Part shown: positions 1,369 to 63,740 of the stretch, piece after piece
How the letters are laid out: each line of letters begins with the position of its first letter
Position numbering within the stretch: position 1 is the stretch's first letter
IMG/VR virus record: IMGVR_UViG_3300042319_002777
Location: 1 to 64,000 of that record
Strand: one strand, 5' to 3'
DNA length: 64,000 bases
Origin: a virus
The notes under the pieces: model-generated
Databases searched by the model: none
The model's input: only the letters and a program-made list of their open reading frames with translations
What the model was told of the DNA's origin: nothing
Made by a program: the position numbers and the translations under genes

Positions 1369-1379
1369 CGGGAAAACTG
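1369..1379 (+). promoter_or_regulatory. late-gene element copy 1
   Basis: CGGGAAAACTG followed by AGGCACGG. The core ends 22 nt before the ATG at 1401. First of 15 forward-strand copies. Confidence 0.6.
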
Positions 1380-1400: not shown

Positions 1401-1649
1401 ATGCCCGACCGCTCCCCCACGCTCCGCCTGTTCCAAGGCCTCTGCGTCGCCGTGCTCCGCCGCGATGGCCCGGCAGCGCGGCAGGGCCTGCGGATGCTCA
1501 CAGCCGTGGCCGACGACCCGGAGGGGGAGCAGATCCTGCGGCTGCTGACCGCCAACCTGGACCCCGAGGGCCGGTACTGGCTGGGCACGCTCCATGGGGC
1601 CCGCAAGGGCCTGGAAGATCCGGCGGCGGGAAAACTCAGGGCAGCCTGA
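1401..1649 (+). CDS. hypothetical protein (82 aa), first gene of the late block
   Basis: I chose ATG 1401 rather than an in-frame TTG at 1389 because it sits 22 nt after the late element, the commonest spacing in this genome. The 82-residue product is helical and Leu/Arg-rich (LFQGLCVAVLRRDG). Its last codons (GKLRAA) are themselves part of late element copy 2. No family recognised; a small structural or assembly role is inferred from position. Confidence 0.55.
   Translation: MPDRSPTLRLFQGLCVAVLRRDGPAARQGLRMLTAVADDPEGEQILRLLTANLDPEGRYWLGTLHGARKGLEDPAAGKLRAA
1627..1637 (+). promoter_or_regulatory. late-gene element copy 2
   Basis: CGGGAAAACTC followed by AGGGCAGC, lying inside the end of the preceding coding sequence. 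The core ends 25 nt before ATG 1662. Confidence 0.6.
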
Positions 1650-2319: not shown

Positions 2320-2330
2320 CGGGAAAACTG
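2320..2330 (+). promoter_or_regulatory. late-gene element copy 3
   Basis: CGGGAAAACTG followed by CAGGCAGT. The core ends 22 nt before the ATG of the 27-codon gene at 2352. The 150 bases upstream (2166-2319) hold no gene I can support. Confidence 0.6.
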
Positions 2331-2446: not shown

Positions 2447-2457
2447 CGGGAAAACTG
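2447..2457 (+). promoter_or_regulatory. late-gene element copy 4
   Basis: CGGGAAAACTG followed by CGAGCAGT. The core ends 22 nt before ATG 2479. Confidence 0.6.
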
Positions 2458-2478: not shown

Positions 2479-3831
2479 ATGGCCCGCGGCGGCAGCAGAG
2501 GCAGACGCACCAGCTATGCCCGCGACAACAGCGGGCGATTTGCCTCGACTCCCGGCGGTGGCCCCTCGAAGCGGAGCACGCCGGCCACCAGGCGAGCGGC
2601 CAGGCCCAAGGTCACCGGTGGCACCCTCGGGGCCCGTGGGAGCCTCCGCCGCAGCCGCGCCAAGCTGGCCGCCAAAGACCCGGCCGATCGCAGCCTGCGG
2701 GGATCGCTCAGCCTGCGGGCGCAGAAGGGGGCCGTCACCAAGGGCGCCAACCGGCTCGGGAAGGTGCGGGCCGCCTCCACGGTGCGGATGGCTCGGAAGG
2801 GGCCGGCGGGGGTGATTCGGAAGGGCGGGAAAGTTGCGGCCAAGCCTGTGGCGGCGGCCAAGTCAGCGGTGAGGGTGATTCGCCCCAATCGCCCCGCAAT
2901 GCGGCCAGGGCCCACAGCCGATCGCGGCAAGATCAGCGAGTACGTGGGCGCGGTGAGAGGGGCCCGGCGGCGGCTCAGCAACGCCAAGCCAGGCACCGCC
3001 AACGCAGCCGAGGCAAAGCAAGGCCTCAAGGACAACCGGCAGGCACTGAGCCGCCGCATTCAACGGGAGCGGGGTGCTCGCCGTGGCCTGAAGCCGGCCA
3101 CCTCGCAGCAGGTTCTCACTGGCACGGTTCCGGCGCCTCCTGCCAGGCGTATGAAGGCCGCACGGCCGGCGGGGACGGTGGTGAAGCCGAAGGGGTTGAA
3201 ACCTGGGGCGATTGCGGGGAGGAAGGGGGCGAAGGCTGCTGCGGCCAAGCCCGGCAAGGCCAAGGCGGCGTCAGCGCCAAAGATCAACGGCAAAGAGTGG
3301 ACCTCCTTGAGCCGTCTCCGGGGAGCGGTTCCATTTGATCGAGGGAGAGGGCAGACCGGGTACTTTATCCCTGGTTCATCCTTGACTCCTGCAAAGCGAA
3401 ATAAGCTAGGGCTAGGCGCATTTAAGTCGGAAGTTAGTGGAGGCAACTTCACCGCGCAAAGGCACACTCAAGGAAGTCAAGAGGGCTGGATTATCAGCCC
3501 AAGAACCCAGCGCGGCGAGACTCCTATTCAGATTCAGCGGGCCAAGTCATCCAAGAAACCGAAAACAGCAGACGACTTGCTGACACAGGCAACACGAATT
3601 GAGGCCGTGGGTCGTCGTATGTCTCGGGCCGCCCGCACAGGCTTCAGGGATCGTCAGATTGAGGCCAGGGCCGTGCGTGCAGCAAAGGCGGCGAGGCAAC
3701 GGGCCTTTGACATGCAAAAGCCACCATCCAAGGCCGAGCTGAAAAGACAGGAGCAACGGCTCAATTCACCGACCACCGCAGGGCTAAACGCTCGCATTGC
3801 GCGTGACTACGCCGCGAGAGGCCGCCGCTAA
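2479..3831 (+). CDS. highly basic Lys/Arg/Ala-rich late protein 1 (450 aa)
   Basis: A 450-residue, extremely basic protein. The N-terminus carries SYARDNSGRFAS (about residues 13-24), shared with the proteins at 11018 and 61598. Residues 30-270 are low-complexity Ala/Arg/Lys/Gly/Pro. From about residue 275 the DNA becomes less GC-rich and the protein looks globular (GQTGYFIPGSSLT), then ends in a basic helix. It heads the neck/tail-completion cluster. A DNA-condensing or virion-internal protein is one possibility; nothing proves it. Confidence 0.75.
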   Translation: MARGGSRGRRTSYARDNSGRFASTPGGGPSKRSTPATRRAARPKVTGGTLGARGSLRRSRAKLAAKDPADRSLRGSLSLRAQKGAVTKGANRLGKVRAASTVRMARKGPAGVIRKGGKVAAKPVAAAKSAVRVIRPNRPAMRPGPTADRGKISEYVGAVRGARRRLSNAKPGTANAAEAKQGLKDNRQALSRRIQRERGARRGLKPATSQQVLTGTVPAPPARRMKAARPAGTVVKPKGLKPGAIAGRKGAKAAAAKPGKAKAASAPKINGKEWTSLSRLRGAVPFDRGRGQTGYFIPGSSLTPAKRNKLGLGAFKSEVSGGNFTAQRHTQGSQEGWIISPRTQRGETPIQIQRAKSSKKPKTADDLLTQATRIEAVGRRMSRAARTGFRDRQIEARAVRAAKAARQRAFDMQKPPSKAELKRQEQRLNSPTTAGLNARIARDYAARGRR

Positions 3832-5575: not shown

Positions 5576-6036
5576 TCCTCGCCGAGACCAACCGCAATCG
5601 CGAAGCCCAGCCCGAGCCCTACAGCCTCCGGGACTTCTGCTTCTGGGTGGAGGTAGCCGAGAAGCCGCGCCCCCCGAGCGAGGCCGGCGCCGCCCTGCTG
5701 GAGCTACTGGAGCGCAACCTCCTGCCGGGGTTCGTGCTCGACGGCCCATGGCTGGCCGACCTGGAGGCCCAGGGCCGTGGCGTCACCCCGCCGCCGCGGC
5801 TGTGTTGGGCGGCCGAGGATGCGATCCTCCTAGCCCCCTATCGGGTGGATGCAGGCCACTGGGGCGGATTCCTCGTGGCCCAGGCCAGTGCCGCGGGCCG
5901 AGTGCGGGAGTTCGCCTCTGAGGCCGGCGAGGTCGTGGCCCTGCGGGTGCCCGCCGATGCGGTGCCGGGGCGATCGTTTACCGCTGCCCAGGCCGGCGCG
6001 GTGCTGGTGCTGGCGAGCCGGGAAAACTCCAGGTAG
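5359..6036 (+). CDS. tail assembly chaperone frameshift extension (gpT-like part of gpGT)
   Basis: Reading on in the -1 frame from the slip site gives about 224 further residues. They include DWARAFWDCRRFWPG, GYVLQALQAGHAAERERLH, a helical region and a C-terminal acidic domain. No start codon is needed; the GTG at 5647 is internal. The predicted fusion is about 412 residues (188 + 224). The last codons overlap late element copy 5. Confidence 0.7.
   Translation, partial: KVAGGQQLDCDRPDWARAFWDCRRFWPGAPEFSRERFGKLPAGYVLQALQAGHAAERERLHREEKGVAQIALILAETNRNREAQPEPYSLRDFCFWVEVAEKPRPPSEAGAALLELLERNLLPGFVLDGPWLADLEAQGRGVTPPPRLCWAAEDAILLAPYRVDAGHWGGFLVAQASAAGRVREFASEAGEVVALRVPADAVPGRSFTAAQAGAVLVLASRENSR
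6019..6029 (+). promoter_or_regulatory. late-gene element copy 5
   Basis: CGGGAAAACTC followed by CAGGTAGA, inside the end of the chaperone extension. The core ends 25 nt before ATG 6054. Confidence 0.6.
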
Positions 6037-10981: not shown

Positions 10982-10992
10982 CGGGAAAACTG
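10982..10992 (+). promoter_or_regulatory. late-gene element copy 6
   Basis: CGGGAAAACTG followed by CGGCAGAA. The core ends 26 nt before ATG 11018, inside the divergent region between the lysin cassette and basic protein 2. Confidence 0.6.
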
Positions 10993-11017: not shown

Positions 11018-12208
11018 ATGCCACGAGGCCGCCGCGCCAGTTACACCCGCGACAACAGTGGCCGGTTCGCCAGCTCGCCAGGCGGCGGGGCCCCAAAGCG
11101 GAGCACCCCAGCGACCCGGCGGGCGGCCACCAGGGCGGGGAACCGGCTGAACCGGGACAACAGCGGGCGGATCAGCGGGATCGGCCGGAATGGGGCCACG
11201 GTGCGCGGCGGGAGACTGAAGACGGCCAAGGGGAACAAGCGGGCCACGCAGCTCACCACCCTGCGGCCGGCAGGGTTCCGGGGCGGCACGATCGCTAAGG
11301 GTGGCCGGGGCGTGCGCGGGATGGTTGCGCGGAGCCTGGCAGCGGCGCGGAAAGGGCGGGCGGGAGCGCAGACGGCTCAGGCCAGTTCAATGCCGCGTCG
11401 CGTCCCTGCTGCGCAGCGGCCGGGATCGCTCACCTCCACCCTGCGGGGCACCCTGCGGGCCGTGGCGCGGGCTGACGCCGCTCGCATCCGCGAGCTGGAG
11501 GCGATCACGGGCCAGAAGATCAAGCCCGCCGCAGCGGGGACCAGGGCCGGCACAGAGGCAGGCGCAAGGGTGCGGGGCGCCGCCAAGGGCGGGAAGGTGG
11601 CGGGCGCCCTGCGGGCAGGCCTGCGGGAGCTGGCCCAGTCGGACGCCAGGACCGCTCGGGAGATGGCCGCGATCGTGCGCGATGCCACCCCAAAGGTGGC
11701 CGGCGGCAAGGGCGGCAAGGCGATTCGTGGGGGGCGGGCGGCATTGCCGGCGGCGGCGCGGAAGGAGCGGATGGCGGCGGCTAAGCCGGTGGCGGCCAAG
11801 CAGCAACCGCAGAAGCCCTCTAAGAAGCCCGCAAAACCCGCACGGGCACGGCGCTCAAAGCCTGATCTGAGTCAAGGCTCATTTGAGCGCCGTGCTCGCG
11901 CCACTGAGAAGCGTGCAAAAGCCGCTGAGCGTGTTGTGTCAGCTATTGATCGCTTTAACCCCGCCAATCGCAGGTTGGTAAATCGCGCCAATTCGCTCCG
12001 ATCTGCGGCGGACAGTTATGCGTACTACGCACGGAGAGGCAAGAACGATCCTGATTTTTCAGCCGCTGATCTCTTTAAGGGAAGAAGCAGGAGTTCTACC
12101 GCTCCAAGGCTGACGCGCAGCGAAAAAGCGGCTGCCACTCGCCGCGCAAAAGCTGATAAGCGCTTCCGCGAGAACGTCCGCAGGATGGAGCAAGACCGCC
12201 GCCGCTAA
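11018..12208 (+). CDS. highly basic Lys/Arg/Ala-rich late protein 2 (396 aa)
   Basis: A paralogue of the proteins at 2479 and 61598. SYTRDNSGRFAS appears at about residues 8-19, and a second copy, NRDNSGRISGIGRNGATVR, at about 45-63, matching the second copy in protein 3. The middle is low-complexity Ala/Arg/Gly/Lys, and the last 120 residues are basic helices encoded by less GC-rich DNA. It precedes the tail terminator and tape measure genes. Confidence 0.75.
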   Translation: MPRGRRASYTRDNSGRFASSPGGGAPKRSTPATRRAATRAGNRLNRDNSGRISGIGRNGATVRGGRLKTAKGNKRATQLTTLRPAGFRGGTIAKGGRGVRGMVARSLAAARKGRAGAQTAQASSMPRRVPAAQRPGSLTSTLRGTLRAVARADAARIRELEAITGQKIKPAAAGTRAGTEAGARVRGAAKGGKVAGALRAGLRELAQSDARTAREMAAIVRDATPKVAGGKGGKAIRGGRAALPAAARKERMAAAKPVAAKQQPQKPSKKPAKPARARRSKPDLSQGSFERRARATEKRAKAAERVVSAIDRFNPANRRLVNRANSLRSAADSYAYYARRGKNDPDFSAADLFKGRSRSSTAPRLTRSEKAAATRRAKADKRFRENVRRMEQDRRR

Positions 12209-12760: not shown

Positions 12761-12771
12761 CGGGAAAACTG
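12761..12771 (+). promoter_or_regulatory. late-gene element copy 7
   Basis: CGGGAAAACTG followed by CACCAGTA. The core ends 25 nt before the GTG start at 12796, which supports that non-ATG start. Confidence 0.6.
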
Positions 12772-20758: not shown

Positions 20759-20769
20759 CGGGAAAACTG
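20759..20769 (+). promoter_or_regulatory. late-gene element copy 8
   Basis: CGGGAAAACTG followed by AAGCAGAC. The core ends 20 nt before ATG 20789; the surrounding 28 bases are repeated almost exactly at copy 9. Confidence 0.6.
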
Positions 20770-20788: not shown

Positions 20789-21232
20789 ATGCCCGCTGCA
20801 ATGCTCCAGACCTTCTACGAGGCCGAGCGGTTGTACCTTGGGGAATATGCCGGCAAGAAAGCCCGCCTGTGCCTAGCGACAACCACATCAGGATCCCCCA
20901 ACCTCGGATCAAACACGGCGGCATGGGATGCCGTAGAGCGCAGCGGCAACGGCTATGCCCGGTGCGAGTGGACAATCCCAGCGGGAAACTTCAACACCAC
21001 CACAGACCGCTTTGAGGCGGGCTCGTACACCTGCACGTTCACCGCTCAAGGATCGGCGCTTACCTGGAACGCTGCCTACCTGGTGATCGGCACCATCAGC
21101 GGCAGCACCGTGACCTGGGGTACTGGCGTGTCGTTTGTGCTCACCGAAAGCCCCAGTATCAGCCTCGCAGCGGGATTGAGCCGCATCTACACGGTCCAGC
21201 TGTTCACCGATGGGTTCACGGTGACGGCCTGA
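20789..21232 (+). CDS. small beta-rich tail-region protein, tandem copy A (147 aa)
   Basis: A 147-residue protein beginning MPAAMLQTFYEAERLYLGEY and ending LFTDGFTVTA. It is about half identical to its neighbour at 21283, sharing YAGKKARLCLA, NGYAR and AYLVIGTI. Both look like compact beta-sandwiches, suited to a virion decoration or tail-tip protein. Each copy carries its own late element. Confidence 0.7.
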   Translation: MPAAMLQTFYEAERLYLGEYAGKKARLCLATTTSGSPNLGSNTAAWDAVERSGNGYARCEWTIPAGNFNTTTDRFEAGSYTCTFTAQGSALTWNAAYLVIGTISGSTVTWGTGVSFVLTESPSISLAAGLSRIYTVQLFTDGFTVTA

Positions 21233-21252
21233 CTGGGAAGGCTATGCGCAAC

Positions 21253-21263
21253 CGGGAAAACTG
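21253..21263 (+). promoter_or_regulatory. late-gene element copy 9
   Basis: CGGGAAAACTG followed by AAGCAGAC. The core ends 20 nt before ATG 21283. It was evidently duplicated together with the gene behind copy 8. Confidence 0.6.
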
Positions 21264-21282
21264 AAGCAGACACGGAAAGCTC

Positions 21283-21732
21283 ATGCCTGCGGCAATGATT
21301 CTGACCCACTTTGAGACGGGGCGGTTGTTTGCCAACAGCTACGCCGGCAAAAAGGCTCGGCTGTGCTTGGCCGTCAACACTGGATCGCTGAGCGCGGCCA
21401 GCACCACTGCCCAGTGGGACGCAGTAGAGCTGACCGGCAACGGCTACGCGAGACATGAATGGACGGTCCCCTCTGGCAGCTACAACAGCTCCACGGAGCG
21501 GTTTGAGGTGCCGGCTCAGCTTTGCGAATTTTCAGCCTCATCCGGGGGTGCCGGGCTGAACTGGAACACCGCCTACCTTGTGATCGGCACGATCGGCGGC
21601 GGTGGAGCTGTCACCTGGAACACGGGCGCTTCGTTTGTGCTTCCCGAAAGCCCAAACATTGTGCTCAGCCCAGGCGAGCCACGCAGTTACAACGTGCTCC
21701 TGTTCACTGATGGCTTCCCGGTGACCGCCTGA
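21283..21732 (+). CDS. small beta-rich tail-region protein, tandem copy B (149 aa)
   Basis: A paralogue of the gene at 20789 with the same start MPAAM and the same end, LFTDGFPVTA. Divergence is concentrated in the loops (residues 30-45 and 75-95). Its stop shares a base with the start of the next gene (TGATG). A gene duplication including the 5' regulatory element explains the arrangement. Confidence 0.7.
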   Translation: MPAAMILTHFETGRLFANSYAGKKARLCLAVNTGSLSAASTTAQWDAVELTGNGYARHEWTVPSGSYNSSTERFEVPAQLCEFSASSGGAGLNWNTAYLVIGTIGGGGAVTWNTGASFVLPESPNIVLSPGEPRSYNVLLFTDGFPVTA

Positions 21733-22760: not shown

Positions 22761-22771
22761 CGGGAAAACTG
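22761..22771 (+). promoter_or_regulatory. late-gene element copy 10
   Basis: CGGGAAAACTG followed by AGGCGCAC. The core ends 41 nt before ATG 22812, longer than the usual 20-26 nt. Confidence 0.55.
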
Positions 22772-23648: not shown

Positions 23649-23659
23649 CGGGAAAACTG
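23649..23659 (+). promoter_or_regulatory. late-gene element copy 11 (capsid unit)
   Basis: CGGGAAAACTG followed by CGGGTGAT. The core ends 158 nt before the capsid start, so this unit has an exceptionally long leader holding a perfect hairpin. Confidence 0.55.
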
Positions 23660-23660
23660 C

Positions 23661-23695
23661 GGGTGATCCCAACGCGCGATGCGGCGGGATCACCC
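23661..23695 (+). other. perfect 10-bp hairpin in the capsid leader
   Basis: GGGTGATCCC (23661-23670) pairs with GGGATCACCC (23686-23695) around a 15-nt loop, just after late element copy 11. No T run follows, so it is not a classical terminator; mRNA stabilisation or a protein-binding site is more likely. Confidence 0.5.
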
Positions 23696-23817
23696 CCCAA
23701 GCGCGATGCGGCAGGGGCAACTGAATCCCCCGAGCCCTTGGCTTGTCGGCGTGGCGCGATGCCTGTCCAGACAGCTACTGAGCGACGGATCCGCCCACAC
23801 CTATCCCCTTCCCAATC

Positions 23818-24795
23818 GTGGCTGTAACCACCTATCACCAGATTTTCGAGCGCAAGAGCTTTGAAGCCGATGCGAATCTGCAGGAGCTTGCCGTTATTGA
23901 GACGATGCTCAAAAACGGCCCCCTGTTCGCGCAGCTTCCGTTCAAGGACATCACTGGCGCCTCTGAAGTGTTCGGCCTGGAAGACGAACTGCCCGCTGTG
24001 GCCGCTCGCCTCCTGGACGAGAAGCCCAAAAATGGACGAGGCAGCTCCATCCCTCAGTCCGTGATCACGGCGATCTACACCGCTGACATTGAAACCGATG
24101 TTCAGCGCCTCGCACGCGAAGGCCGAGGCTCTCACGACAGCGAGGTTCTCCGCAACGCCAAAGCCATTCGGATGCTACTGGAGACCGACTTTATTCGCGG
24201 CAGCCTCCAAGCCAGCGGCGGCAGGTCGTTCAACGGCCTCGCCAACCTGATTACGGCTGTATCCACCAATAGCCAGGCCATCGCCAATCATGCCACCGGC
24301 GCCTCCCCTAAGTTGGCGGCACTGGACGACATGATGAATCAGGTGGACGCGGCGCCATCCGAGAAGAAACTGATCTTTCCCAAGAGCATGAGGCCCGCCT
24401 TGCAGGCCCTGCGGCGCGATCAAACCCTGACCGGCAACCTGCAGATCGAGACCAATGCTCTCGGCCAGCCGGCACTGTTCTACGACGAGGCGGAAATCAT
24501 CCTCACGGATGTTGACCCACTCAACGTACCGATTCAGGGCTTTACCGAAGGGAGCGGTGGCAATGCCTGCTCCATCTATTGCGTTGCCCTTGGCGAGGAT
24601 TCGGTCTACATGGCCCAAGGCCTCAGCATGGTAAATGGCGAGCTTCAGCCGGGCCTGGTGGTCTATGACGTGGGCGAATCCTACGCCACGACCCACTTCA
24701 AAACTCGGATTAATATCGACTGCGCGGCGGTGATCAAGAACCCCCGCAAGGCTGCCCGCCTTTACAACGTGACCAAGGCCAACTTCGCGGCCTGA
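23818..24795 (+). CDS. major capsid protein (325 aa)
   Basis: GTG start at 23818 (MAVTTYHQIFERKSFEAD). The 325-residue length, position after a scaffold-like gene, and pattern (an N-terminal helical arm, then a mixed alpha/beta body with FPKSMRPALQALRRDQTL and DVDPLNVPIQGF) suit an HK97-fold capsid protein. There is no obvious N-terminal delta domain, consistent with a separate scaffold. It lies about 34 kb from portal and terminase within this window, an uncommon separation. Confidence 0.8.
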   Translation: MAVTTYHQIFERKSFEADANLQELAVIETMLKNGPLFAQLPFKDITGASEVFGLEDELPAVAARLLDEKPKNGRGSSIPQSVITAIYTADIETDVQRLAREGRGSHDSEVLRNAKAIRMLLETDFIRGSLQASGGRSFNGLANLITAVSTNSQAIANHATGASPKLAALDDMMNQVDAAPSEKKLIFPKSMRPALQALRRDQTLTGNLQIETNALGQPALFYDEAEIILTDVDPLNVPIQGFTEGSGGNACSIYCVALGEDSVYMAQGLSMVNGELQPGLVVYDVGESYATTHFKTRINIDCAAVIKNPRKAARLYNVTKANFAA

Positions 24796-25386: not shown

Positions 25387-25677
25387 ATGAGCTTTCTATC
25401 AATCAGCGTTTGCCCTGGCATGGACTGGGACCCAGCCGCCGAATGGGCCAGGCCAGCTCAAGGCAACGACGCTGCCGAGGAGCAAGTCGCAGCCCCCGAG
25501 GACCCCGCGCAAGGGCAGGGAAGGCTGAGCCGGCTTACTGGGCGCCGCCGGGCTCGCACCGATAGCGGCACCTTTCAGGCGGACGACCCGGCCACGCCAG
25601 CGGTGAACGAGGCCTACCAGGAGGTGGCGGAGCCCAGCGCCGAGGCCGAGTCCGAGCCGGGAAAACTGAGGCAGTGA
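25387..25677 (+). CDS. hypothetical acidic protein (96 aa)
   Basis: ATG 25387 follows AGGA by 5 nt. The 96-residue product is acidic and disordered in character (Glu/Ala/Pro), with a short conserved-looking start MSFLSISVCPGMDWDPAAEW. Its end (EPGKLRQ) encodes late element copy 12. It lies after the terminator, so it may be expressed at a low level from read-through. Confidence 0.55.
   Translation: MSFLSISVCPGMDWDPAAEWARPAQGNDAAEEQVAAPEDPAQGQGRLSRLTGRRRARTDSGTFQADDPATPAVNEAYQEVAEPSAEAESEPGKLRQ
25658..25668 (+). promoter_or_regulatory. late-gene element copy 12
   Basis: CGGGAAAACTG followed by AGGCAGTG, within the end of the preceding gene. The core ends 38 nt before the TTG start at 25706. 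Confidence 0.55.
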
Positions 25678-30878: not shown

Positions 30879-30889
30879 CGGGAAAACTG
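30879..30889 (+). promoter_or_regulatory. late-gene element copy 13 (holin-like unit)
   Basis: CGGGAAAACTG followed by AGGCAGAG. The core ends 22 nt before ATG 30911. Confidence 0.6.
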
Positions 30890-48907: not shown

Positions 48908-49588
48908 GTGAGCCCCATGCTCACCACCCATTCCACCCCTCAAGCTCCCATGCCTGAATCACTCCTCAACCTGCCCGAAATCCTGGCCAGCCACGCTCGC
49001 TGGTTGGCCTGTGATCCGAGCGGCCAACGCGCCAACCTCGACGGGGCCAACCTCAACAGGGCCAGCCTCGTCGGGGCCAACCTCGACGGCGCCAGCCTCG
49101 TCGGGGCCAACCTCGACGGGGCCAACCTCGACGGGGCCAACCTCAACAGGGCCAGCCTCGTCGGGGCCAGCCTCGACGGGGCCAACCTCAACAGGGCCAG
49201 ACTCGACGGGGCCAACCTCGACGGGGCCAGCCTCGACGGGGCCAACCTCAACAGGGCCAGACTCGACGGGGCCAACCTCGACGGGGCCACTGGCATCGTT
49301 ATCGCAGCCGACGCTCCTCAACGCCTCAGGGCCGCCGCAGCTGCCGCCCTCCAGGAGGGTGCGCTAGAGATGGGCGCCTGGCACTCCTGCGACACCACAC
49401 ATTGCCTAGGCGGCTGGCTGATCCATCAGGCCGGAGAAGTTGGCCGGCTCCTGGAGGCCACAGTCGGCCCAGGGATCGCCGGTTTGATGCTCGGCGGCGT
49501 CGAGGCTCACAGCCATTTTTACGACAGCAACGAAGCCGCTACCGAGTGGCTGCGTTCGGTGCTGGCGCAGCCTGAGGCGAAGTCGTGA
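48908..49588 (+). CDS. pentapeptide-repeat protein (about 212-226 aa)
   Basis: After a helical start ([17 protein letters not shown]), residues about 41-128 are 17 repeats of A(N/S/R)L(D/N/V)(G/R), the classic right-handed quadrilateral beta-helix that can mimic DNA. A second domain follows with [19 protein letters not shown]. Start at GTG 48908 or ATG 48950. Known pentapeptide proteins inhibit gyrase or serve unknown roles. The repeats are nearly identical at DNA level. Confidence 0.8.
49035..49290 (+). repeat. 15-bp tandem DNA repeats in the pentapeptide gene
   Basis: About 17 units of GGGGCCAACCTCGAC and variants. Near-identity at the nucleotide level suggests recent expansion by slippage or unequal recombination rather than old protein-level repeats. 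Confidence 0.75.
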
Positions 49589-50788: not shown

Positions 50789-51456
50789 GCACCCCCGATC
50801 TGATCAAACGCCTCACCACGGCGCTGCGCGTGCAGCTCGATGGCGTCGCCCTTCACCAGGAGTTGCTGGCCGAGGCTGACGCCGCCCTGGCCCAGCCGGA
50901 GGGGGAGGGGCCGAGTGACCAGGAACTTGCGAGCTTCTTGGCCGATCGGCACAGAGCGCGAATGGAGAGTGAATCGGCGTTTGGTTGTCCCGATTTTGAC
51001 GGAGCCAAGGCCAGGGCTGCTCGGATTGCCGATGCCCGCGCTGTCCTCGCCCGCTGGGGCCGCGCCGTCACCCCGCCAGCGCCGGAGCCGAAAGCAGCAC
51101 CGGAGGTAGGGGAGGTGGCGGAGTTGGTGGTGTGGCTGACCATGCTGCGGGACAATTCCACGGGGATCGCTACCCGGTACGACGAGAGGCTCGCACGCAT
51201 CGCCACCCTGCTGCAGCAGCCCTCCGAGCCCGCCCCGGCGGTGGTGCCGGTGGCGGTGAGTGAGCGGCTGCCGGGGCCGGAGGATTGTGACGAAGATGGG
51301 TTTTGTTGGATGGGTTACGGATACAGGCTCCCTGGGGAAAACGAAAAAGATCAATACGCTATATGGATGCTTATGCCTTTTGAAGAATCAAATGGAGAAG
51401 TGTGGGTCCGCGCCAGCGACATCCCGCTACCCCAGGCCGGGGAGGTGGAGGGATGA
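50785..51456 (+). CDS. hypothetical protein with DUF551-like module, junction peptide QAGEVEG (223 aa)
   Basis: The N-terminal part is helical (LHQELLAEADAALAQPE). The C-terminal part starting VSERLPGPEDCDEDGFCWMG resembles the DUF551-type module of phage ead/eaa proteins. It ends PLPQAGEVEG, shared with the ends of two following genes. It may be one of the host-interaction genes typical of this position. Confidence 0.6.
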   Translation: MSTPDLIKRLTTALRVQLDGVALHQELLAEADAALAQPEGEGPSDQELASFLADRHRARMESESAFGCPDFDGAKARAARIADARAVLARWGRAVTPPAPEPKAAPEVGEVAELVVWLTMLRDNSTGIATRYDERLARIATLLQQPSEPAPAVVPVAVSERLPGPEDCDEDGFCWMGYGYRLPGENEKDQYAIWMLMPFEESNGEVWVRASDIPLPQAGEVEG

Positions 51457-51542
51457 AATGGGATGCCTAGGTAGTGTTCTGGATCTGCTTTTTTGTCTAC
51501 GAAATCGCCATTCAACTTTACCCAAACGGGATTAAACCATGA
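51453..51542 (+). pseudogene. small membrane-protein gene interrupted by one in-frame TAG
   Basis: From ATG 51453 the frame reads MKWDA, TAG, then VVFWICFFVYEIAIQLYPNG and IKP before TGA. Both ends overlap the neighbours by exact ATGA junctions, so the 29-codon gene is positionally intact. The remainder is a clear transmembrane helix. TAG probably replaced TGG (Trp). Confidence 0.5.
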
Positions 51543-51817
51543 CTATCACTGAAAGCAGCAGCAACCTGCCAGCACAAATGCACTGCACTAACCGCACCAG
51601 CCCCTTGGGTGAGGATTACATCGGAACTTGTTACTTATGCGGCAAGACAGGGATTGGAGATGCTGAGATGTTTGAAGAGTGCAAAAACCCCAATGGATTG
51701 ACGCAAGGTGAAGCACTCATTGAAGCGCTTGAAAACCCTGCCACCACCCTGCTGCTGCAGCAAGCCCAGCCCGCCCACGCCATCGCGCCGCCCCAGGCCG
51801 GGGAGGTGGAGGCGTGA
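51539..51817 (+). CDS. small zinc-knuckle-like protein (92 aa)
   Basis: MTITESSSNLPAQMHCTNRT with CYLCGKTG (about residues 31-38) and one more Cys later; a compact metal site is plausible. It ends PPQAGEVEA, the shared junction peptide, and overlaps the next GTG start. Confidence 0.6.
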   Translation: MTITESSSNLPAQMHCTNRTSPLGEDYIGTCYLCGKTGIGDAEMFEECKNPNGLTQGEALIEALENPATTLLLQQAQPAHAIAPPQAGEVEA

Positions 51818-52215
51818 GCAAAATCAAGAAGACGATTGCCGACTACCGCCCGTTTTTTGCGCTGAGCGAACTGCTGGATGCTCTCATTGCTGGCGAGCTG
51901 ATAGCAAAAGATAGAAAGGCTGTTACCCGCCGCCTGAGAAGAATTAGGGAAGCTGTGCTCGCCGCGCCTGAGGCGGCGATGGTGCCGGTGGTCTATGACG
52001 CTGGAGATGGCATTTCGATTCACCGGGCCAGCCAAGCCCCTGAAGCGTGGGCTGTTCGCAGGGATATGGATTGCCTTGCGCTTGACGGCACATGGAGTTG
52101 TGAGCCGATGCCGTCAAGCCAAACCGAGGAATGGCTGGCACGCCATCGGTTCGCCTCGGCCGAGGCTGCCGCCCACGCCATCCCGCTGCCCCAAGCCGGG
52201 GAGGTGGAGGCGTGA
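51814..52215 (+). CDS. hypothetical protein (133 aa)
   Basis: GTG 51814. Residues 1-48 are basic and helical (ELIAKDRKAVTRRLRRIRE); the second part contains YDAGDGISIHRASQAPEAWA. It again ends PLPQAGEVEA and overlaps the next gene. No family recognised. Confidence 0.6.
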   Translation: MSKIKKTIADYRPFFALSELLDALIAGELIAKDRKAVTRRLRRIREAVLAAPEAAMVPVVYDAGDGISIHRASQAPEAWAVRRDMDCLALDGTWSCEPMPSSQTEEWLARHRFASAEAAAHAIPLPQAGEVEA

Positions 52216-52568
52216 GCAACAAGCAACTCTATCTACTTTGCGCCGTGATTCTCTTCACGGTGAGCAATATATTCCGGCCTGCACTTTTATTCGGGATTGC
52301 GTTGTCTTTCCTTGCCCTGTTTTTTATTCACAGAAACATGAACGAACCACTTTCCCCCGCCGCACAAGCGGTTGACGATGCGACCCGCAACACATGGTTC
52401 ACTCGGGACTTTCCCCGCCCCATTGCCGCCGCCGCCCTCCGCGCCGCTTCAGGCCGAACGGGAGACCTGATCGGCGACATTTCTCACCCGAAGTTTGCAG
52501 AGGGCGTGCTCGCTGCGGTGGACCTCCTGGAGCGCATCGCCAACGAGCTGGAGACCCCCAATGCCTGA
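52212..52568 (+). CDS. two-segment membrane protein plus helical domain (118 aa)
   Basis: GTG 52212. Residues 5-40 hold two hydrophobic helices (LYLLCAVILFTVSNIF, ALLFGIALSFLALFFIH). From residue 43, MNEPLSPAAQAVDDATRNTW resembles the start of an independent phage protein family. Thus two units appear fused in frame; an internal start at 52338 is possible. Confidence 0.55.
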   Translation: MSNKQLYLLCAVILFTVSNIFRPALLFGIALSFLALFFIHRNMNEPLSPAAQAVDDATRNTWFTRDFPRPIAAAALRAASGRTGDLIGDISHPKFAEGVLAAVDLLERIANELETPNA

Positions 52569-56230: not shown

Positions 56231-57778
56231 ATGCCCCTAAACCTCCTCCACCACGCCGCCTACCACGACTGGGGCGGCTTCCCCGCGATGCGGGAGGTGC
56301 AGGAGGCCAGGGCCGCAGAAGCGGCGATCCCGGCGGCAGTGGAGCCTTACACCAATTCCTTCAGGCAGTACATCGCTGATGCCTTCCCGCGCTTCCCGTT
56401 TACGCCTCACACAGAACGGCTGATCGCCCTTGGCCAGCGCTTCGCCGATGGCGACCTGCCGCGGCTGATGGTGGAGCTCCCCCCGAGGCACTGGAAGTCC
56501 ACAATCTTCAGTCGGTTCCTGCCCGGCTACTGCCTGCGGCGGTTCCCCGATCGCTCCGGGGGCATCTGCTGCCAGACCCAGGATCTTGCGGTGGGGTTTT
56601 CCGAGAATGCCCGCGATTACTTCGCCGCCAGTGGTGGCCCGTTGAGCCCCACCCGCTCAGGGAAGGAGGAATGGGGCACCGCCGATGGGATCGGAACGAT
56701 CTGGACTGCAGGCATCGGCAAGGGCACCGGCAAGCCAGGGCACTGGCTGTTCATCGATGACCCGATCAAGGGCAGGGAAGAGGCCGAATCGGCGGCCTTC
56801 CGCCGGCAGGTTCACAACTGGTGGGATTCAGTGCTGAGCGCCCGTGAGGAGCCCGGCAACGGCGTGGTGGTGGTTCACACCCGCTGGCATGAGGCCGATC
56901 TGATCGGCTACCTGTTGAGCAAGAACCTGGAACTGGAGAAGGAGGACATGGAGGACGACTGCGAGCGCTGGCACGTCGTCTCCCTGCCGATCTCTGCGGT
57001 GCCCGCCAACGACATCAAGCCCCTACCGGCCACCGTCACCCGCGAGGCCGACAGCCGCCAGCCCGGCGAGGCCCTGGACCCCGATCGTTTTGATGAGCGA
57101 TGGATCAAGCGGAAGAGGGCCAACACGCCAGAGCGGGACTGGGAATCGATTTTTCAGCAGCGGCCGAGCGCCGGGAAGGGGACCGTTTTCTTCCTGGATC
57201 GAATGCGGTTCTACGGCTGCCCGGCCTGGCCCGGCAAGCCCGACGACCCCGAGCTGCCGACGCACTTCATCCGCCGGATCCTGTCGGTTGACTGCACCTT
57301 TGACGACACCGCCGGTAGCGACATGGTGGCGATGACCCTTTGGGGGCAGACCCCTCAAGGCGCCTGGTTGCTGGATCTGGTGAATGAGCGCTTGGACTTT
57401 CCCGCTACGGTGAGCATGATCCGCTCGATGTACACCCGGCACCGCTTCGGGGAGCTGGTGATCGAGAAGAAGGCCAACGGCGCCGCAGTGATCAAGACCC
57501 TCACGCAGGGCGCCCACGGCTATCAGGTGGTTGCCGCCGGGGTCGGTGACATGGGCGGCAAGGAATCCCGCGCCAATGCTGCCAGCGTGGAGTTCAACAA
57601 CGGCCGGGTGTTCCTGCCTCGCTCCGCCCCCTGGAGCAATGTGGTCAAAGATCAGTTATTGCAATTCCCCGCAGCAACGTTCGATGACATTGTGGACAGC
57701 ACAAGTCAGCTCTTGATCTATCTCTCCAGCTCTGGTCCCATCAGTTTCTCTACGGTGAGCTATGGCTATGGCGCCTAA
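56231..57778 (+). CDS. terL: large terminase subunit (515 aa)
   Basis: ATPase motif PPRHWKST (residues 84-91; the usual Gly/Ser before Lys is Trp here), Walker B-type WLFIDDPIKGREEAES (about 174-189), and C-terminal RNase H-like nuclease blocks RRILSVDCTFDDTAGSD and ELVIEKKANG. It packages DNA into proheads from concatemers. No late element precedes it, so it is probably transcribed earlier or with the accessory genes. Confidence 0.9.
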   Translation: MPLNLLHHAAYHDWGGFPAMREVQEARAAEAAIPAAVEPYTNSFRQYIADAFPRFPFTPHTERLIALGQRFADGDLPRLMVELPPRHWKSTIFSRFLPGYCLRRFPDRSGGICCQTQDLAVGFSENARDYFAASGGPLSPTRSGKEEWGTADGIGTIWTAGIGKGTGKPGHWLFIDDPIKGREEAESAAFRRQVHNWWDSVLSAREEPGNGVVVVHTRWHEADLIGYLLSKNLELEKEDMEDDCERWHVVSLPISAVPANDIKPLPATVTREADSRQPGEALDPDRFDERWIKRKRANTPERDWESIFQQRPSAGKGTVFFLDRMRFYGCPAWPGKPDDPELPTHFIRRILSVDCTFDDTAGSDMVAMTLWGQTPQGAWLLDLVNERLDFPATVSMIRSMYTRHRFGELVIEKKANGAAVIKTLTQGAHGYQVVAAGVGDMGGKESRANAASVEFNNGRVFLPRSAPWSNVVKDQLLQFPAATFDDIVDSTSQLLIYLSSSGPISFSTVSYGYGA

Positions 57779-57834
57779 GCATTCACTGATGCAATAATGG
57801 GACAACAAACAGGCCCAAATCCGGTGCGTTGAGC

Positions 57835-58746
57835 ATGGCCACCACCACCCGGCGCCTCAGGGCCGCCCGCAGCCAGAAGGTCCGGCCCGACCCGTGTCCT
57901 GATCTGGACCGGCTCAAGGGGTTCCCGCCGCCTACGGCATGGTCGGAGCAGCTGGCGGCCGACAACCTCCTTTTGGCCGCCAGCATGGCCAACCGGATGG
58001 CCCGGTCCACCCGGATGCCGTTTGACGACCTGTTCCTGGTGGCCGCCAGAGGCCTGCTCAACGGCTGCCGCAAGTATGACCCCGAGCGCCTTAACCCGGC
58101 CACCAAACGCCCCTATGCCCTGTCCACGTGCGTGGTGCCCTACGTCCGTGGGGCCATGGCCCAGTGGCTGCGGGACCGGGGCCACAGCTCCGGGGTGAAG
58201 TTCCCCGATAAGTGGAGGGACGTGGCGCCCACGGTGCGGCGCCTCGCCGCCGACGGGGCCACCCTCTCGGCCGTGGTGGAGGCCACCGGGCTCGCGCCTG
58301 AGGAGGTGACGGCGATCCTTGAAGCACAGGGGGCCACGCGGCTCCTCGACCCTGAGGCCCTCCATGCCAACCGTGAGCCCGACCCGTGGGATGAGATCGA
58401 GAGCTACGACGAGCTGAACGAGGTGCTGCGGATCGCAGACGAGGCCCATGCCGCTCTGCGGTGGGCGGATCGGCAGATGCTGGAAGCGGCCTGGGATGCC
58501 CAGCCCCGGCGCCAGGTGGCGCGGATGCCCCATGGGCAGTTCCTGCGGCACGCCGAGGGCATCATTTGGGGCGAGCGACTGAAGCCGGCGCCAGAGCAGC
58601 AGGCCCTGGCCTTGGTCGTGCCTGACGGGGCTGCAGGGGGCCCCGAGGGCAAGGCGGGGCGACGCATCACGGATCCGGTTGAGATCCTGCGGGTGGCGGA
58701 GCAGTTGGATTTGTTTGGTGCCTGTCGGGATGGGGGTGGGGCATGA
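57835..58746 (+). CDS. phage-encoded sigma-70-family RNA polymerase sigma factor (303 aa)
   Basis: ATG 57835. Residues about 35-125 match sigma region 2: ADNLLLAASMANRMARS, PFDDLFLVAARGLLNGCRKYDP and then YVRGAMAQWLRDRGH, the FliA/SigF-like RGAMxxWLRDxG block. Residues about 125-165 follow region 3 (WRDVAPTVRRLAADGATLS, GLAPEEVTAIL). The C-terminus has a degenerate region 4 (ALRWADRQMLEAAWDA). It sits between terminase and the first late element of the head module. It should direct host polymerase to phage promoters. Confidence 0.7.
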   Translation: MATTTRRLRAARSQKVRPDPCPDLDRLKGFPPPTAWSEQLAADNLLLAASMANRMARSTRMPFDDLFLVAARGLLNGCRKYDPERLNPATKRPYALSTCVVPYVRGAMAQWLRDRGHSSGVKFPDKWRDVAPTVRRLAADGATLSAVVEATGLAPEEVTAILEAQGATRLLDPEALHANREPDPWDEIESYDELNEVLRIADEAHAALRWADRQMLEAAWDAQPRRQVARMPHGQFLRHAEGIIWGERLKPAPEQQALALVVPDGAAGGPEGKAGRRITDPVEILRVAEQLDLFGACRDGGGA

Positions 58747-58856
58747 GCACCACCCTGCACCTCCGCGAGGCCCAGTATCACGCCATCGCCGAGCAGCGGA
58801 TCAGCAGGGCCGCAGCGGCTGGGCATCAGCCCGACCTGTTCAGCCTCACCGCCTAA
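58743..58856 (+). CDS. small hypothetical protein (37 aa)
   Basis: ATG 58743 overlaps the sigma stop. The 37-residue product (MSTTLHLREAQYHAIAEQRI) is helical and ends GHQPDLFSLTA. Its overlap with the sigma gene suggests a partner or anti-sigma role, but this is speculation. Confidence 0.5.
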   Translation: MSTTLHLREAQYHAIAEQRISRAAAAGHQPDLFSLTA

Positions 58857-58884: not shown

Positions 58885-58895
58885 CGGGAAAACTG
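58885..58895 (+). promoter_or_regulatory. late-gene element copy 14 (portal unit)
   Basis: CGGGAAAACTG followed by GGCCAGAA. The core ends 22 nt before GTG 58917. Confidence 0.6.
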
Positions 58896-58916: not shown

Positions 58917-60455
58917 GTGCAGCAGCAGATCAGCCACCCGAGCGATAAGGGCGATCTGCCGTCGTTCCAGCACCCGAAGCTGCGGGAAGTGATGGCCGAC
59001 CTCGATCTGGTCGCCGACTGCTGGGATCTGCTGCGAGGCGACGCGAAGAAGCGGCACCTGCCAAAAGAGGCCGGCGAGCCCCGGCAGGCCTATGAGGCGC
59101 GGGTGGGGCGCAGCAGCTATCCGAGCTTTTTCAAGGATGGCGTGAGCGCCTTCGCGGGGGTGCTGAGCCGTTACCAACTGCGAGGGGTGCAGCAGGGTCT
59201 CCTCGACGCGGCCCAGGACATTGACGGCGAGGGCAACAGCCTGAAGGCTTGGGGCCTCGGCACCGATGCCCTGGTGCTCCGGGATGGCGGCTGCCTGCTG
59301 ATGGCCGACGCGCCGCAGGGGACACCCGAGAGCAGGGCGCAGGAGCGGGCCCAAGGCCGCCGGCCCACGTTCTCAGCCGCCGAGCGCCGGAACGTCCTGA
59401 ATTGGCGGACCGTCAAGCGGGGCGGACGGCGGGTGCCGATCGCCGTCACGATCCTGGAGTGGCACGAGGTAAAAGACGGGGATTACGGCGTCAAGCTGGA
59501 GCCCAGATACCGCGTGATGCAGGGGGGCAGGTGGCGCCTCCTGGAGATAACCGGCAACGGCGGCAAGGGGGCTTCGGCCAGCTTCATCATCAAGGTGGCC
59601 ACCGACGATGACGGGCGCCCGCAGGAGGGCACCTTCACCGGGCCCAGGGGCGAGGCGCTGGAGAGCCCGCCGGTGGCCTGGTACGGCGTCAGCCGCGACG
59701 GCTTTGGAGAGGGCGGCCTGCCGCTGCTGAGCCTGGCGAACCTCACCCTGGACTGGTTCCGCGAATACTCCGACCTGAAGGAGCTGCTGCACCGGTGCGC
59801 TCTGCCGGTGGCCGTGGTGAAGGGGCGCCGGATGGCTGGGCCCAATGGCGAGCCACTGCCGCTGATGCTGGGGCCGAACAGCGTGGTGGAGTTCCCGAAC
59901 GCAGGCTCCGGGGAGGGGTTGGAGTTCGCCGAGCCCTCCGGCAGCAGCCTGGACAAACACCTGGCCCACCTGGAGGGGATCGAGAAGCTGATTGATCGCA
60001 GCACCCTGAGCTTCCTGTTCAGCGGCAGCGGTGAGCGCACCGCCACGCAGGCCGAGCTGGAAGGGGCCCAGCTGCAGGCCACCATCACGGCGATGGCCGA
60101 GAGCAAGAGCAGCGCATGGGAGAGCCTCTTCCAGCTTTGGGGGGCCTTCACCGGCGAGCGGCCCCAGCCCGGTGCGGGCCTTGACCTGTTGCCAGGGGTC
60201 ACCGACAAGCCCGTGGATGATGCCTTATTGACCCTCGCCGGCACGCTCTACGACAAGGGCCTTCTCATGCGCGAGACGGTCACGCACCTGGCGCAGAAGC
60301 GGGGCATGCTCCGCCCTGGTGCCGATGGCCAGAAGGAGGCCGCCGATCTGGCTGCCGAGGATGAACGGCAGCAGGCGTTGATGAACCCGCCGGCACCGGG
60401 GGCGAATGACCTCGCAGGCGACGACGTGGACGCGCAGGGGCTGCCGCTGAACTGA
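58917..60455 (+). CDS. portal protein (512 aa)
   Basis: GTG start supported by the late element. The N-terminal part (DLDLVADCWDLLRGD, then RSSYPSFFKDGVSAFAG) and the middle (YSDLKELLHRCALPVAVVKGR, EPSGSSLDKHLAHLEG) match the portal family often called DUF4055. The C-terminal helical part is Gln/Glu-rich. It forms the DNA-entry ring. A MuF-type head protein gene follows directly. Confidence 0.8.
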   Translation: MQQQISHPSDKGDLPSFQHPKLREVMADLDLVADCWDLLRGDAKKRHLPKEAGEPRQAYEARVGRSSYPSFFKDGVSAFAGVLSRYQLRGVQQGLLDAAQDIDGEGNSLKAWGLGTDALVLRDGGCLLMADAPQGTPESRAQERAQGRRPTFSAAERRNVLNWRTVKRGGRRVPIAVTILEWHEVKDGDYGVKLEPRYRVMQGGRWRLLEITGNGGKGASASFIIKVATDDDGRPQEGTFTGPRGEALESPPVAWYGVSRDGFGEGGLPLLSLANLTLDWFREYSDLKELLHRCALPVAVVKGRRMAGPNGEPLPLMLGPNSVVEFPNAGSGEGLEFAEPSGSSLDKHLAHLEGIEKLIDRSTLSFLFSGSGERTATQAELEGAQLQATITAMAESKSSAWESLFQLWGAFTGERPQPGAGLDLLPGVTDKPVDDALLTLAGTLYDKGLLMRETVTHLAQKRGMLRPGADGQKEAADLAAEDERQQALMNPPAPGANDLAGDDVDAQGLPLN

Positions 60456-61565: not shown

Positions 61566-61576
61566 CGGGAAAACTA
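61566..61576 (+). promoter_or_regulatory. late-gene element copy 15
   Basis: CGGGAAAACTA followed by CCTGCAGT. The core ends 22 nt before GTG 61598, supporting that start. Confidence 0.55.
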
Positions 61577-61597: not shown

Positions 61598-63088
61598 GTG
61601 GCAGGCGGCAGCAAGGGCAGGCGGACCTACGCCAGGGACAACCGGGGCCGCTTCGCCTCGACTGGCACCACCACCGCCAAGGCCAAGCCCGCCGCCCGGC
61701 GAGCGCAGCGAGGCACGAACCGAATCACCAGGGACAACAGCGGCAAGATCACCGGCGTGGGTAAGAACGGCGCCACGGCGCGTGGTGGTCGCCTCAGGAC
61801 CGCCGCCGGGAACCAGCGGGGGGCGGTGTTGGATCGGCTCAAGCGGGCGCCCATGGCGGGGACTGTGGGCAGGGGCGGGAAGATTCGGGGTGGGGTGAAG
61901 GGGATGGCTGTGGCCAGGCAACCGGCAACGATCGGGAAGCCCATTGGCGGCGCAAGCAAGCAAATCAAGGGCGGCGCCGTCAGGGGCACCATGAAGCCTC
62001 CGGTGACGCTGGGAGGGTTGCTTGGCGCGGGTGGAAATCGGTGGCAGAAGAACGGCATGGACAGGATTTATTTCAATAACATTGCGGAAAGAGCTGGCAT
62101 TAGCGCCAATCGCTACAAGTCGGGAAACATCAGTTCGGCCAGTCTTTCTGGTAAGGGAATTAGCAACAGCAAAGCACGCGAAATCATATCCACTCTTGAG
62201 TCGGGGAAGGTTTTTTACGATAGGAAGGCAAGACGAATGGTTGTTCAGGGCCCGGCCATGAGAACTGGCAGGTCCAGTCAGATGACCACGGCTGAGCAGC
62301 TAGCGGGCAGGGTCGCCAGCCGCCTCCAGCGGCAATCCAGAATGAGGGCAACACGCCGGGCCAATCAGGGCGGAGCGCCAAGGCCGGCGGCTAAGCCAGT
62401 CGCCCCCAAGCAAACCAAGGCCGCCACGGTGGCACGACGCCCAGTCAAGACGAGGCAGGACAAAGCGGCTCAGGCGATGAGGCTCGCCTCTCGTGCAGCG
62501 GCTCGATCTCAGTCGCCCAAGCTGAGCAAGGCGGCGGCACTGCGCAGCGAGAAGCTGTCAGCCAGCCTCAGGGCAAGGGCAAAACAGCTATCGCAGCGGC
62601 CAACCCTCAGCAGGGCCCAGCGGGACAAGGCTGCACGGGCTCGGAAGGACTACGGGGTGAAGTCCACGGGCACCAAGGGCAAGAAGGGTGCTGCAGTCCC
62701 CTCTGGAGCAATCCCATCGGGCCGCACCGTCTACCGGACCAGGGCGCAGGCGATCAGGGCGCAGCAGGCCCGCACCAACACCCTCGGGAAGGCGACCGCC
62801 GCGAAGCGAGGCTTCAATGAGGCGGTCGGCAAGCGCAGTGATTTCGCCGACTCCGCCCCCCGCACCGTGATCAGCCGCCCAAGGATCCCGCAGCTCAGCC
62901 TGTCGGGCCGGGTTGAGCGTGTCGGCGCTGGCCGCTTCCGCACCATTGGCGAACGCCTGGGCGGCGGCAGCATCCGCCGGCCTCGATCCAAGCCCGGCCC
63001 GCTGCGTGGCACCAAGGCCTGGAAGCGGCAGCTCAATCAGGCGATCAAGGCGAACGGCGGCAAGGACGCGGCCGCGTTCCGGTTCTGA
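61598..63088 (+). CDS. highly basic Lys/Arg/Ala-rich late protein 3 (496 aa)
   Basis: GTG 61598 (AGGSKGRRTYARDNRGRFAS). An upstream open stretch belongs to another frame. TYARDNRGRFAS at residues 9-20 and TRDNSGKITGVGKNGATAR at about 43-61 match proteins 1 and 2. Around residues 140-200 the DNA becomes AT-richer (FNNIAERAGISANRYKSG), then a long Lys/Arg/Ala region and a compact end (RGTKAWKRQLNQAIKANGG). It is the last gene of the portal block. Confidence 0.75.
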   Translation: MAGGSKGRRTYARDNRGRFASTGTTTAKAKPAARRAQRGTNRITRDNSGKITGVGKNGATARGGRLRTAAGNQRGAVLDRLKRAPMAGTVGRGGKIRGGVKGMAVARQPATIGKPIGGASKQIKGGAVRGTMKPPVTLGGLLGAGGNRWQKNGMDRIYFNNIAERAGISANRYKSGNISSASLSGKGISNSKAREIISTLESGKVFYDRKARRMVVQGPAMRTGRSSQMTTAEQLAGRVASRLQRQSRMRATRRANQGGAPRPAAKPVAPKQTKAATVARRPVKTRQDKAAQAMRLASRAAARSQSPKLSKAAALRSEKLSASLRARAKQLSQRPTLSRAQRDKAARARKDYGVKSTGTKGKKGAAVPSGAIPSGRTVYRTRAQAIRAQQARTNTLGKATAAKRGFNEAVGKRSDFADSAPRTVISRPRIPQLSLSGRVERVGAGRFRTIGERLGGGSIRRPRSKPGPLRGTKAWKRQLNQAIKANGGKDAAAFRF

Positions 63089-63120: not shown

Positions 63121-63188
63121 GGAACGCCTGCGTTACAGACTGTGAACTGGCACCGCCGATCGCGATTGGGAGGTAACGCCTGCGTTAC
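63121..63188 (+). promoter_or_regulatory. operator pair 1, GTAACGC dyads 52 bp apart
   Basis: Sites at 63121-63136 (one mismatch) and 63173-63188 (perfect GTAACGC-CT-GCGTTAC). The second ends 48 nt before ATG 63237. A near copy of the whole arrangement precedes the gene at 63741. Confidence 0.6.
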
Positions 63189-63236
63189 GGTTGAGGTCTG
63201 GGAGGCAATCCCAGCACCTCAACCAGCGAATCAACC

Positions 63237-63622: not shown

Positions 63623-63690
63623 TGAACGCCTGCGTTACAGCTTGTGAACTGGCCTGTCCAGACACGGGCGAGGGGTAACGGTTGCGTTAC
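63623..63690 (+). promoter_or_regulatory. operator pair 2, GTAACGC dyads 52 bp apart
   Basis: Sites at 63623-63638 and 63675-63690 (GTAACGGTTGCGTTAC). Between the members of each pair the sequence TGTGAACTGGC is also conserved. The second site ends 50 nt before ATG 63741. Confidence 0.6.
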
Positions 63691-63740
63691 TGTGAGGCTT
63701 CAGGGGAGGGATCAGCCCTCTCCGCACCTCTCAACCAGCG

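Follow-up and report, generated by a model that had tools for sequence, protein, structure and literature searches.

A SigF-type phage sigma factor with a candidate clamp-binding tail and a probable -10-only late promoter

Results

A group 3 sigma factor gene lies between terL and the portal gene

The stretch of viral DNA analysed here, hereafter the window, comprises 64,000 nucleotides (positions 1 to 64,000 of IMG/VR record IMGVR_UViG_3300042319_002777) and carries, directly after terL and ahead of the portal gene, an open reading frame (ORF; 57835-58746) whose sequence identifies it as a diverged group 3 (SigB/F/G, cyanobacterial SigF-type) sigma factor. The frame opens with ATG at 57835, ends with a stop codon at 58744-58746 and has an in-frame TTG at 57829. 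The locus contains the following features, with amino acids abbreviated aa:

56231-57778, plus strand: terL, directly 5' of the sigma gene, synteny anchor with phages S-CBS2, S-CRES1/3 and P-SS2 (PHROG terL)
57835-58746, plus strand: phage sigma factor gene, group 3 (SigF-type), 303 aa (PHROG, PDB-profile, NCBIfam and fold matches)
57937-58182, plus strand: sigma domain 2 (aa 35-116), most conserved part, presumed reader of the -10 element (SigF alignment, model, alignment of relatives)
58207-58326, plus strand: sigma domain 3 (aa 125-164; SigF alignment, model)
58384-58566, plus strand: degenerate region 4-like helices (aa 184-244; model, fold alignment; no Pfam region 4 match)
58702-58716, plus strand: codons for QLDLF (aa 290-294), candidate beta-clamp-binding motif (alignment, ORF count, codon comparison)
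58917-60455, plus strand: portal gene, predicted first target 3' of the sigma gene (profile match)

The original prediction, made from the letters alone, called this gene a sigma-70-like factor, and profile and fold searches alike bear it out: PHROG sigma families match at E values of 7e-14 and 4e-13, a profile of the protein matches PDB SigF at 5e-6, and NCBIfam returns SigF (PRK07408, 9e-11) and SigBFG (TIGR02980, 1.6e-8), both below their curated cut-offs, which is why we regard the protein as a diverged member of that family. In a fold search with an AlphaFold model built from 27 relatives (an earlier one from 15 sequences was poor), the best 50 matches shown were all sigma factors, over 217-268 columns. 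Pfam Sigma70_r2 has no match in the window protein itself, its cut-off being passed only in relatives L186 and L193.

The domain layout that had been proposed, with clear regions 2 and 3 and a weak region 4, stands in part. Region 2 is upheld; RGAMAQWLRDRG, previously read as region 3, aligns instead to the end of region 2, which we take to be region 2.4/3.0, with region 3 presumably at about aa 125-164. There the SigF alignment runs on through region 3 and the model places three helices, while the Pfam region 3 match is marginal (0.023, in L186). At aa 184-244 region 4 is as weak as expected: helices are predicted and fold-aligned, no region 4 profile matches, and the putative target sites have no -35 element.

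Fifteen late-strand copies of one 10-mer precede late genes

The sequence CGGGAAAACT occurs exactly 15 times on the plus strand and once on the minus strand of the 65-kb record, agreeing with the earlier count of 15 near-identical late sites; with at most one mismatch there are 18 copies, against 3.2 expected from shuffles of the window. The lone minus-strand copy (1077-1086) has no downstream CAG and is probably due to chance. A start codon follows 20-26 nt 3' of the element at 12 of the 15 sites, and the genes so led include those for the portal, a tail protein, the tape measure, a scaffold-like protein and the major head protein. All 15 sites lie on the plus strand and were found by motif search:

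1369-1378, plus strand: late element before ATG 1401
1627-1636, plus strand: late element before ATG 1662
2320-2329, plus strand: late element before small ORF, ATG 2352
2447-2456, plus strand: late element before ATG 2479 (450 aa)
6019-6028, plus strand: late element before tail protein, ATG 6054
10982-10991, plus strand: late element before ATG 11018 (396 aa)
12761-12770, plus strand: late element before tape measure, GTG 12796
20759-20768, plus strand: late element before ATG 20789
21253-21262, plus strand: late element before ATG 21283
22761-22770, plus strand: late element before scaffold-like ATG 22812 (41 nt)
23649-23658, plus strand: late element before major head protein, GTG 23818, with long structured leader
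25658-25667, plus strand: late element before 775-aa ORF, GTG 25807
30879-30888, plus strand: late element before ATG 30911
58885-58894, plus strand: late element before portal; predicted start site 58900
61566-61575, plus strand: late element before GTG 61598 (496 aa)

No copy of CGGGAAAACT falls within 30889-58884, the 28-kb early part with integrase, recombination, replication and terminase genes, an outcome with a chance of 1.8e-4 if sites were uniform; the sigma gene, lying in this interval, therefore has no element of its own. The first site past it (58885-58894) stands 22 nt 5' of the portal start, so that the gene precedes the first element of the portal unit as originally described. 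This many separate sites fits a switch different from Q-type antitermination.

The leader of the major head gene (23659-23830) is about 160 nt long and has a strong predicted fold that opens with a GGTGATCCC/GGGATCACC hairpin. Three related proteins (2479-3831, 11018-12208 and 61598-63088), which share a RTSYARDNSGRFAST-like start, each have a late element of their own.

The element resembles a group 3 -10 element

In an alignment of 77 non-redundant sites from ten genomes, clear conservation is confined to the 10-mer and a less pronounced tail of the form G..G.AG (consensus G(C/A)GGCAG) that reaches to position 16; no -35 element is seen in these sites, TAGGC occurs in 2 and the upstream signal is weak. 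Allowing variable spacing yielded only a weak upstream word (ctGa.gc), which we read as upstream stop codons, with TAGGC, GTTT and TTGAC each few, and the candidate -35 was rejected. Bacillus subtilis SigF and SigB recognise elements of the form GGnRAnAMTR and GGGWAW, respectively. By its sequence CGGGAAAACT resembles such a group 3 -10 element, here standing without a -35. A CAG about 6 nt 3' of the element is the likely start site, with +1 on its A, because this places GGGAA at -14 to -10. The core promoter of Synechocystis SigF is TAGGC/GGTAA, with TAGGC at -32 and GGTAA as the -12 element (PMC2758279). Domain 2 of the phage sigma is probably the part that reads the element.

Element and sigma gene occur and drift together

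Some 60 viral contigs encode relatives of the sigma (36-100% identity). Those of about 50% identity or more come with the exact element, which in long contigs has 7-17 copies on one strand and 0 on the other; at 44%, three lower-G+C genomes have six or seven exact late-strand copies together with CGGGAAAA variants. The exact motif thus tracks the gene to about 44% identity, and more distant relatives have shifted, recognisable elements: CCGGAAAACTGA in G008 (sigma 39%), 11 to 1 for GGAAAACT, and GGGAAAAC(C) in G001 (sigma 41%). At the level of sequence, element and phage sigma drift jointly across the relatives.

Nine of 30 contigs retrieved with an extended motif had at least five copies. The sigma gene is present in 6 of the nine, and the other three (G013, G014 and G036) lack the terL-sigma stretch, their contigs having an end within the terL-portal interval, as judged for G013 and G036 from site spacing compared with relatives. 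G014 is no counterexample of motif without sigma, the start of its contig lying immediately ahead of a methyltransferase gene that is inserted in the sigma-portal interval. Among contigs with at least five copies, every one that includes the terL-portal interval also has the sigma gene; the co-occurrence of gene and motif suggested as a check on the prediction thus holds, no many-copy contig that spans the interval having been found without the gene. Homology and co-occurrence likewise support the proposed role of the sigma as reader of the late element; the reading itself we infer.

Cultured cyanophages share the gene order and a related element

The nearest relatives of the window TerL are those of S-CBS2, S-CRES1, S-CRES3 and P-SS2, in all of which the sigma gene directly follows terL as it does in the window. 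Their sigmas (P-SS2 ORF 003, S-CBS2 gp77, S-CRES1 gp20 and S-CRES3 gp21) are homologous to that of the window, and group 3 sigma genes adjoining terL are already annotated in P-SS2, S-CBS2 and S-CRES1; the authors of the P-SS2 genome noted a group 3 sigma and expected it to have its own regulon, naming no promoter (PMC2784084). These phages infect Synechococcus and Prochlorococcus and the nearest cellular relatives are in freshwater Cyanobium/Synechococcus, making a picocyanobacterium the likely host of the window phage. As deposited in GenBank, the S-CBS2 sigma (gp77; L153) reads truncated; a frameshift in the record is suggested, since the next frame runs on to QGSLF as in S-CRES1/3.

The exact 10-mer is not enriched in S-CBS2 or S-CRES1. 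A de novo motif search upstream of all their annotated genes, made without functional labels, returned atnGGnAtnCTA in S-CBS2 and GGnAnnCTa in S-CRES1 (log-likelihoods 112 and 104, against 39-47 in shuffles). In S-CBS2, 12 of the 20 structural or lysis genes have GG[ACT]AN[AC]CT[AG] upstream, against 13 of the 82 remaining genes (P=1.5e-4). Both phages resemble the window phage in having a related element before late genes; their site sets are impure, because some early-gene matches overlap TATACT -10 boxes, as at S-CBS2 rpoD. In GC-rich genomes the de novo search gave composition or start-codon signals only, even in the window itself, and its lack of a motif there is accordingly uninformative.

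The sigma ends in a conserved QxxLF peptide

The C-terminal end of the sigma reads AEQLDLFGACRDGGGA, with QLDLF at aa 290-294 of 303. In an alignment of 27 relatives the protein is variable and gapped past aa 245, and the pentapeptide is nonetheless kept: among 16 non-redundant rows the Q is found in 14, the second L in 15 and the F in 13. QxxLF is retained in most of the phage sigma clade (36-100% identity), at the exact C-terminus as QLDLF in L186, L188, L191 and L192 and as QGSLF in S-CRES1/3; the 36% identity group has QCDLF and QFDMF. Across 5,066 ORFs from 16 genomes QLxLF occurs in 13, 10 of which are this sigma. QxxLF is absent from 27 sigma relatives in cyanobacterial genome contigs. 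One cyanobacterial-contig relative that has the peptide, L251, also has five motif copies, and appears to be a phage contig that was placed in a cyanobacterial metagenome-assembled genome by binning.

All six leucine codons are represented in QLxLF, and the next element, where there is one, lies anywhere between 10 and 254 nt away. The constraint therefore acts on the protein, and the idea that QLDLF is kept because its codons form a -35 for the portal promoter falls on the same two grounds. At sequence level, then, the QxxLF tail is under selection.

QL[S/D]LF, and more generally QxxLF, is the bacterial beta-clamp-binding consensus and is often C-terminal (PMC12309361, PMC9690074); positions 1, 4 and 5 are decisive for binding (PMC12309361), and QLDLF introduced into Escherichia coli Pol III alpha is a very tight clamp binder, at about 7 nM (PMC12309361; PMC9690074). 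The sigma tail thus probably binds a replication clamp. The phage record encodes an O-like replication initiator and none of its proteins has a beta-clamp match, so that the partner would be the host clamp.

Two other ORFs have similar endings. A 37-aa ORF (58743-58856) between the sigma gene and the portal element ends in HQPDLFSLTA; it looks like a DNA methyltransferase remnant, for which reason its QPDLF was rejected as a part of the system. G014 has a full methyltransferase gene in its place (L239:63-1070), and most close relatives have nothing there. In G011, an 83-aa ORF (21098-21349; L218) ends in QLGLFQP and is a possible second clamp-binding protein.

Other repeats in the window

Elsewhere in the window, an array of 15-nt period with about 18 or more units (48971-49349) lies within ORF 48908-49588, CCCCAGGCCGGGGAGGTGGAGG-type repeats stand at the ends of successive early genes (51410-51460, 51771-51821 and 52169-52219), and direct repeats with GTAACGCCTGCGTTAC-type palindromes lie near the window end (63122-63191 and 63624-63693).

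Discussion

We consider it probable that the phage sigma recognises late promoters made up of a -10 element alone and is anchored to the host replication clamp, an arrangement akin to that of T4 gp55 and independent in origin. The sigma would be made at the end of a rightward operon that runs through terL and would join the host core RNA polymerase; its domain 2 (2.4/3.0) would recognise the 10-mer as a -10-type element working without a -35, and transcription would probably begin about 6 nt 3' of it, at the A of CAG, giving leaders of about 15-20 nt. QLDLF, on its flexible linker, would bind the host beta sliding clamp left on phage DNA by the host replisome, and this tether would hold the holoenzyme on replicating phage DNA and compensate for the lack of a -35 contact. 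Late genes would then switch on once the sigma is made and phage DNA is replicating, a coupling of late transcription to replication.

Several observations weigh against this scheme. On the side of the promoter, late-gene enrichment of GG[ACT]AN[AC]CT[AG] is not significant in S-CRES1 (P=0.09), and some elements stand before non-structural genes (rnr, terS and the sigF gene itself in S-CBS2). Confidence in the AlphaFold model is medium (pLDDT 70, pTM 0.38), and its global TM-scores to sigma structures are low because its domains are placed loosely. As to the tail, QxxLF is lost in L176/L177 (QLALL or QAALL), in L195/L199/L200 and in P-SS2, and G008 (L200), without the peptide, keeps the similar -10-like element CCGGAAAACTGA; being absent from relatives with a similar promoter and from P-SS2, the peptide is not indispensable. 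On the tree it requires four changes, compatible with one gain and three losses. Binding in E. coli is reduced when position 3 is glycine (QLGLF), and QMGLF is a weak binder in B. subtilis (PMC12309361); several of the sigma relatives have QLGLF.

These losses bear on the possibility that the sigma reads the late element while its pentapeptide binds another partner or acts as a structural cap, with no coupling to replication. The loss of the peptide in three branches of the family, with the promoter type kept where checkable, favours such a role, as does a short helix (aa 281-290) modelled just before the peptide. We nonetheless think it unlikely: conservation falls on positions 1, 4 and 5, which in the clamp consensus are the ones important for binding (PMC12309361), the variants QLDLF, QCDLF, QFDMF and QGSLF all fit QxxLF or QxxMF, and in several members the peptide is the very C-terminus, a frequent place for clamp motifs.

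Less likely still is that a host SigF holoenzyme, or an unseen phage activator, reads the 10-mer and the phage sigma has another regulon. SigF-type factors are present in freshwater Cyanobium/Synechococcus genomes and the known SigF core promoter contains GGTAA (PMC2758279); against this, the late sites lack TAGGC, the 27 host-type loci examined have no exact 10-mer, the sigma gene retains its place adjoining terL, and element and sigma drift together. Action of the 10-mer in RNA, for example by enhancing translation or by marking late leaders for processing, would suit its fairly constant position 20-26 nt before starts, and is most improbable given that 3 of the 15 sites lie farther away, that GGnAnnCTR followed by CAG matches what a group 3 -10 element and its start site should look like, and that the 10-mer co-occurs with the sigma gene.

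The system proposed for the window phage, with a SigF-type sigma reading a -10-only promoter and held by the host clamp, would parallel T4 late transcription (gp55 sigma, gp33 coactivator, gp45 clamp) in using a phage sigma and a -10-type promoter without a -35. In T4 gp55 the linker that bears the clamp peptide varies in both length and sequence (PMC2988020, PMC7892883), and by its sequence motif the window sigma has a candidate C-terminal counterpart, likewise on a variable linker. In contrast to gp55, it belongs to the group 3 SigF-like lineage and has domains 2 and 3 together with a vestige of 4; a PHROG scan gave no match to the gp55 family at E<=10, which places it outside that family. 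The promoter sequence also differs from that of T4, the peptide is of the bacterial QxxLF type, and the presumed partner is the host beta clamp instead of a phage clamp. No gp33-like partner turned up; no systematic search was made for a second clamp-binding transcription factor.

Among cellular sigmas, cyanobacterial SigF/SigB/F/G is the best profile match, and the Synechocystis -12 element GGTAA resembles GGGAA. The Synechocystis SigF core promoter differs from the phage element in also including TAGGC at -32 (PMC2758279), and the relatives in host genomes differ from the phage sigma in having a region 4 helix-turn-helix-like C-terminus and no QxxLF. P-SS2, by contrast with the window phage, has a sigma without the clamp peptide.

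On balance we favour the wider conclusion that a non-T4 phage lineage built replication-coupled late transcription from a SigF-type sigma with a clamp-binding tail, the host beta clamp serving as activator. In the literature searched, clamp-activated late transcription is described for T4-type phages only; priority is not certain, subscription papers having lain outside the search. Promoter and peptide are predicted to the residue, and the proposal can be tested in S-CBS2 or the S-CRES phages. If true, it would account for a terL-adjoining gene without a known role in cultured cyanophages, and the sigma would be the first, judging from the literature searched, to be linked with the bacterial beta clamp. 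It would also be a second, unrelated case of such activation, using the host clamp, and would make the coupling of late genes to replication through a sliding clamp a recurring solution.
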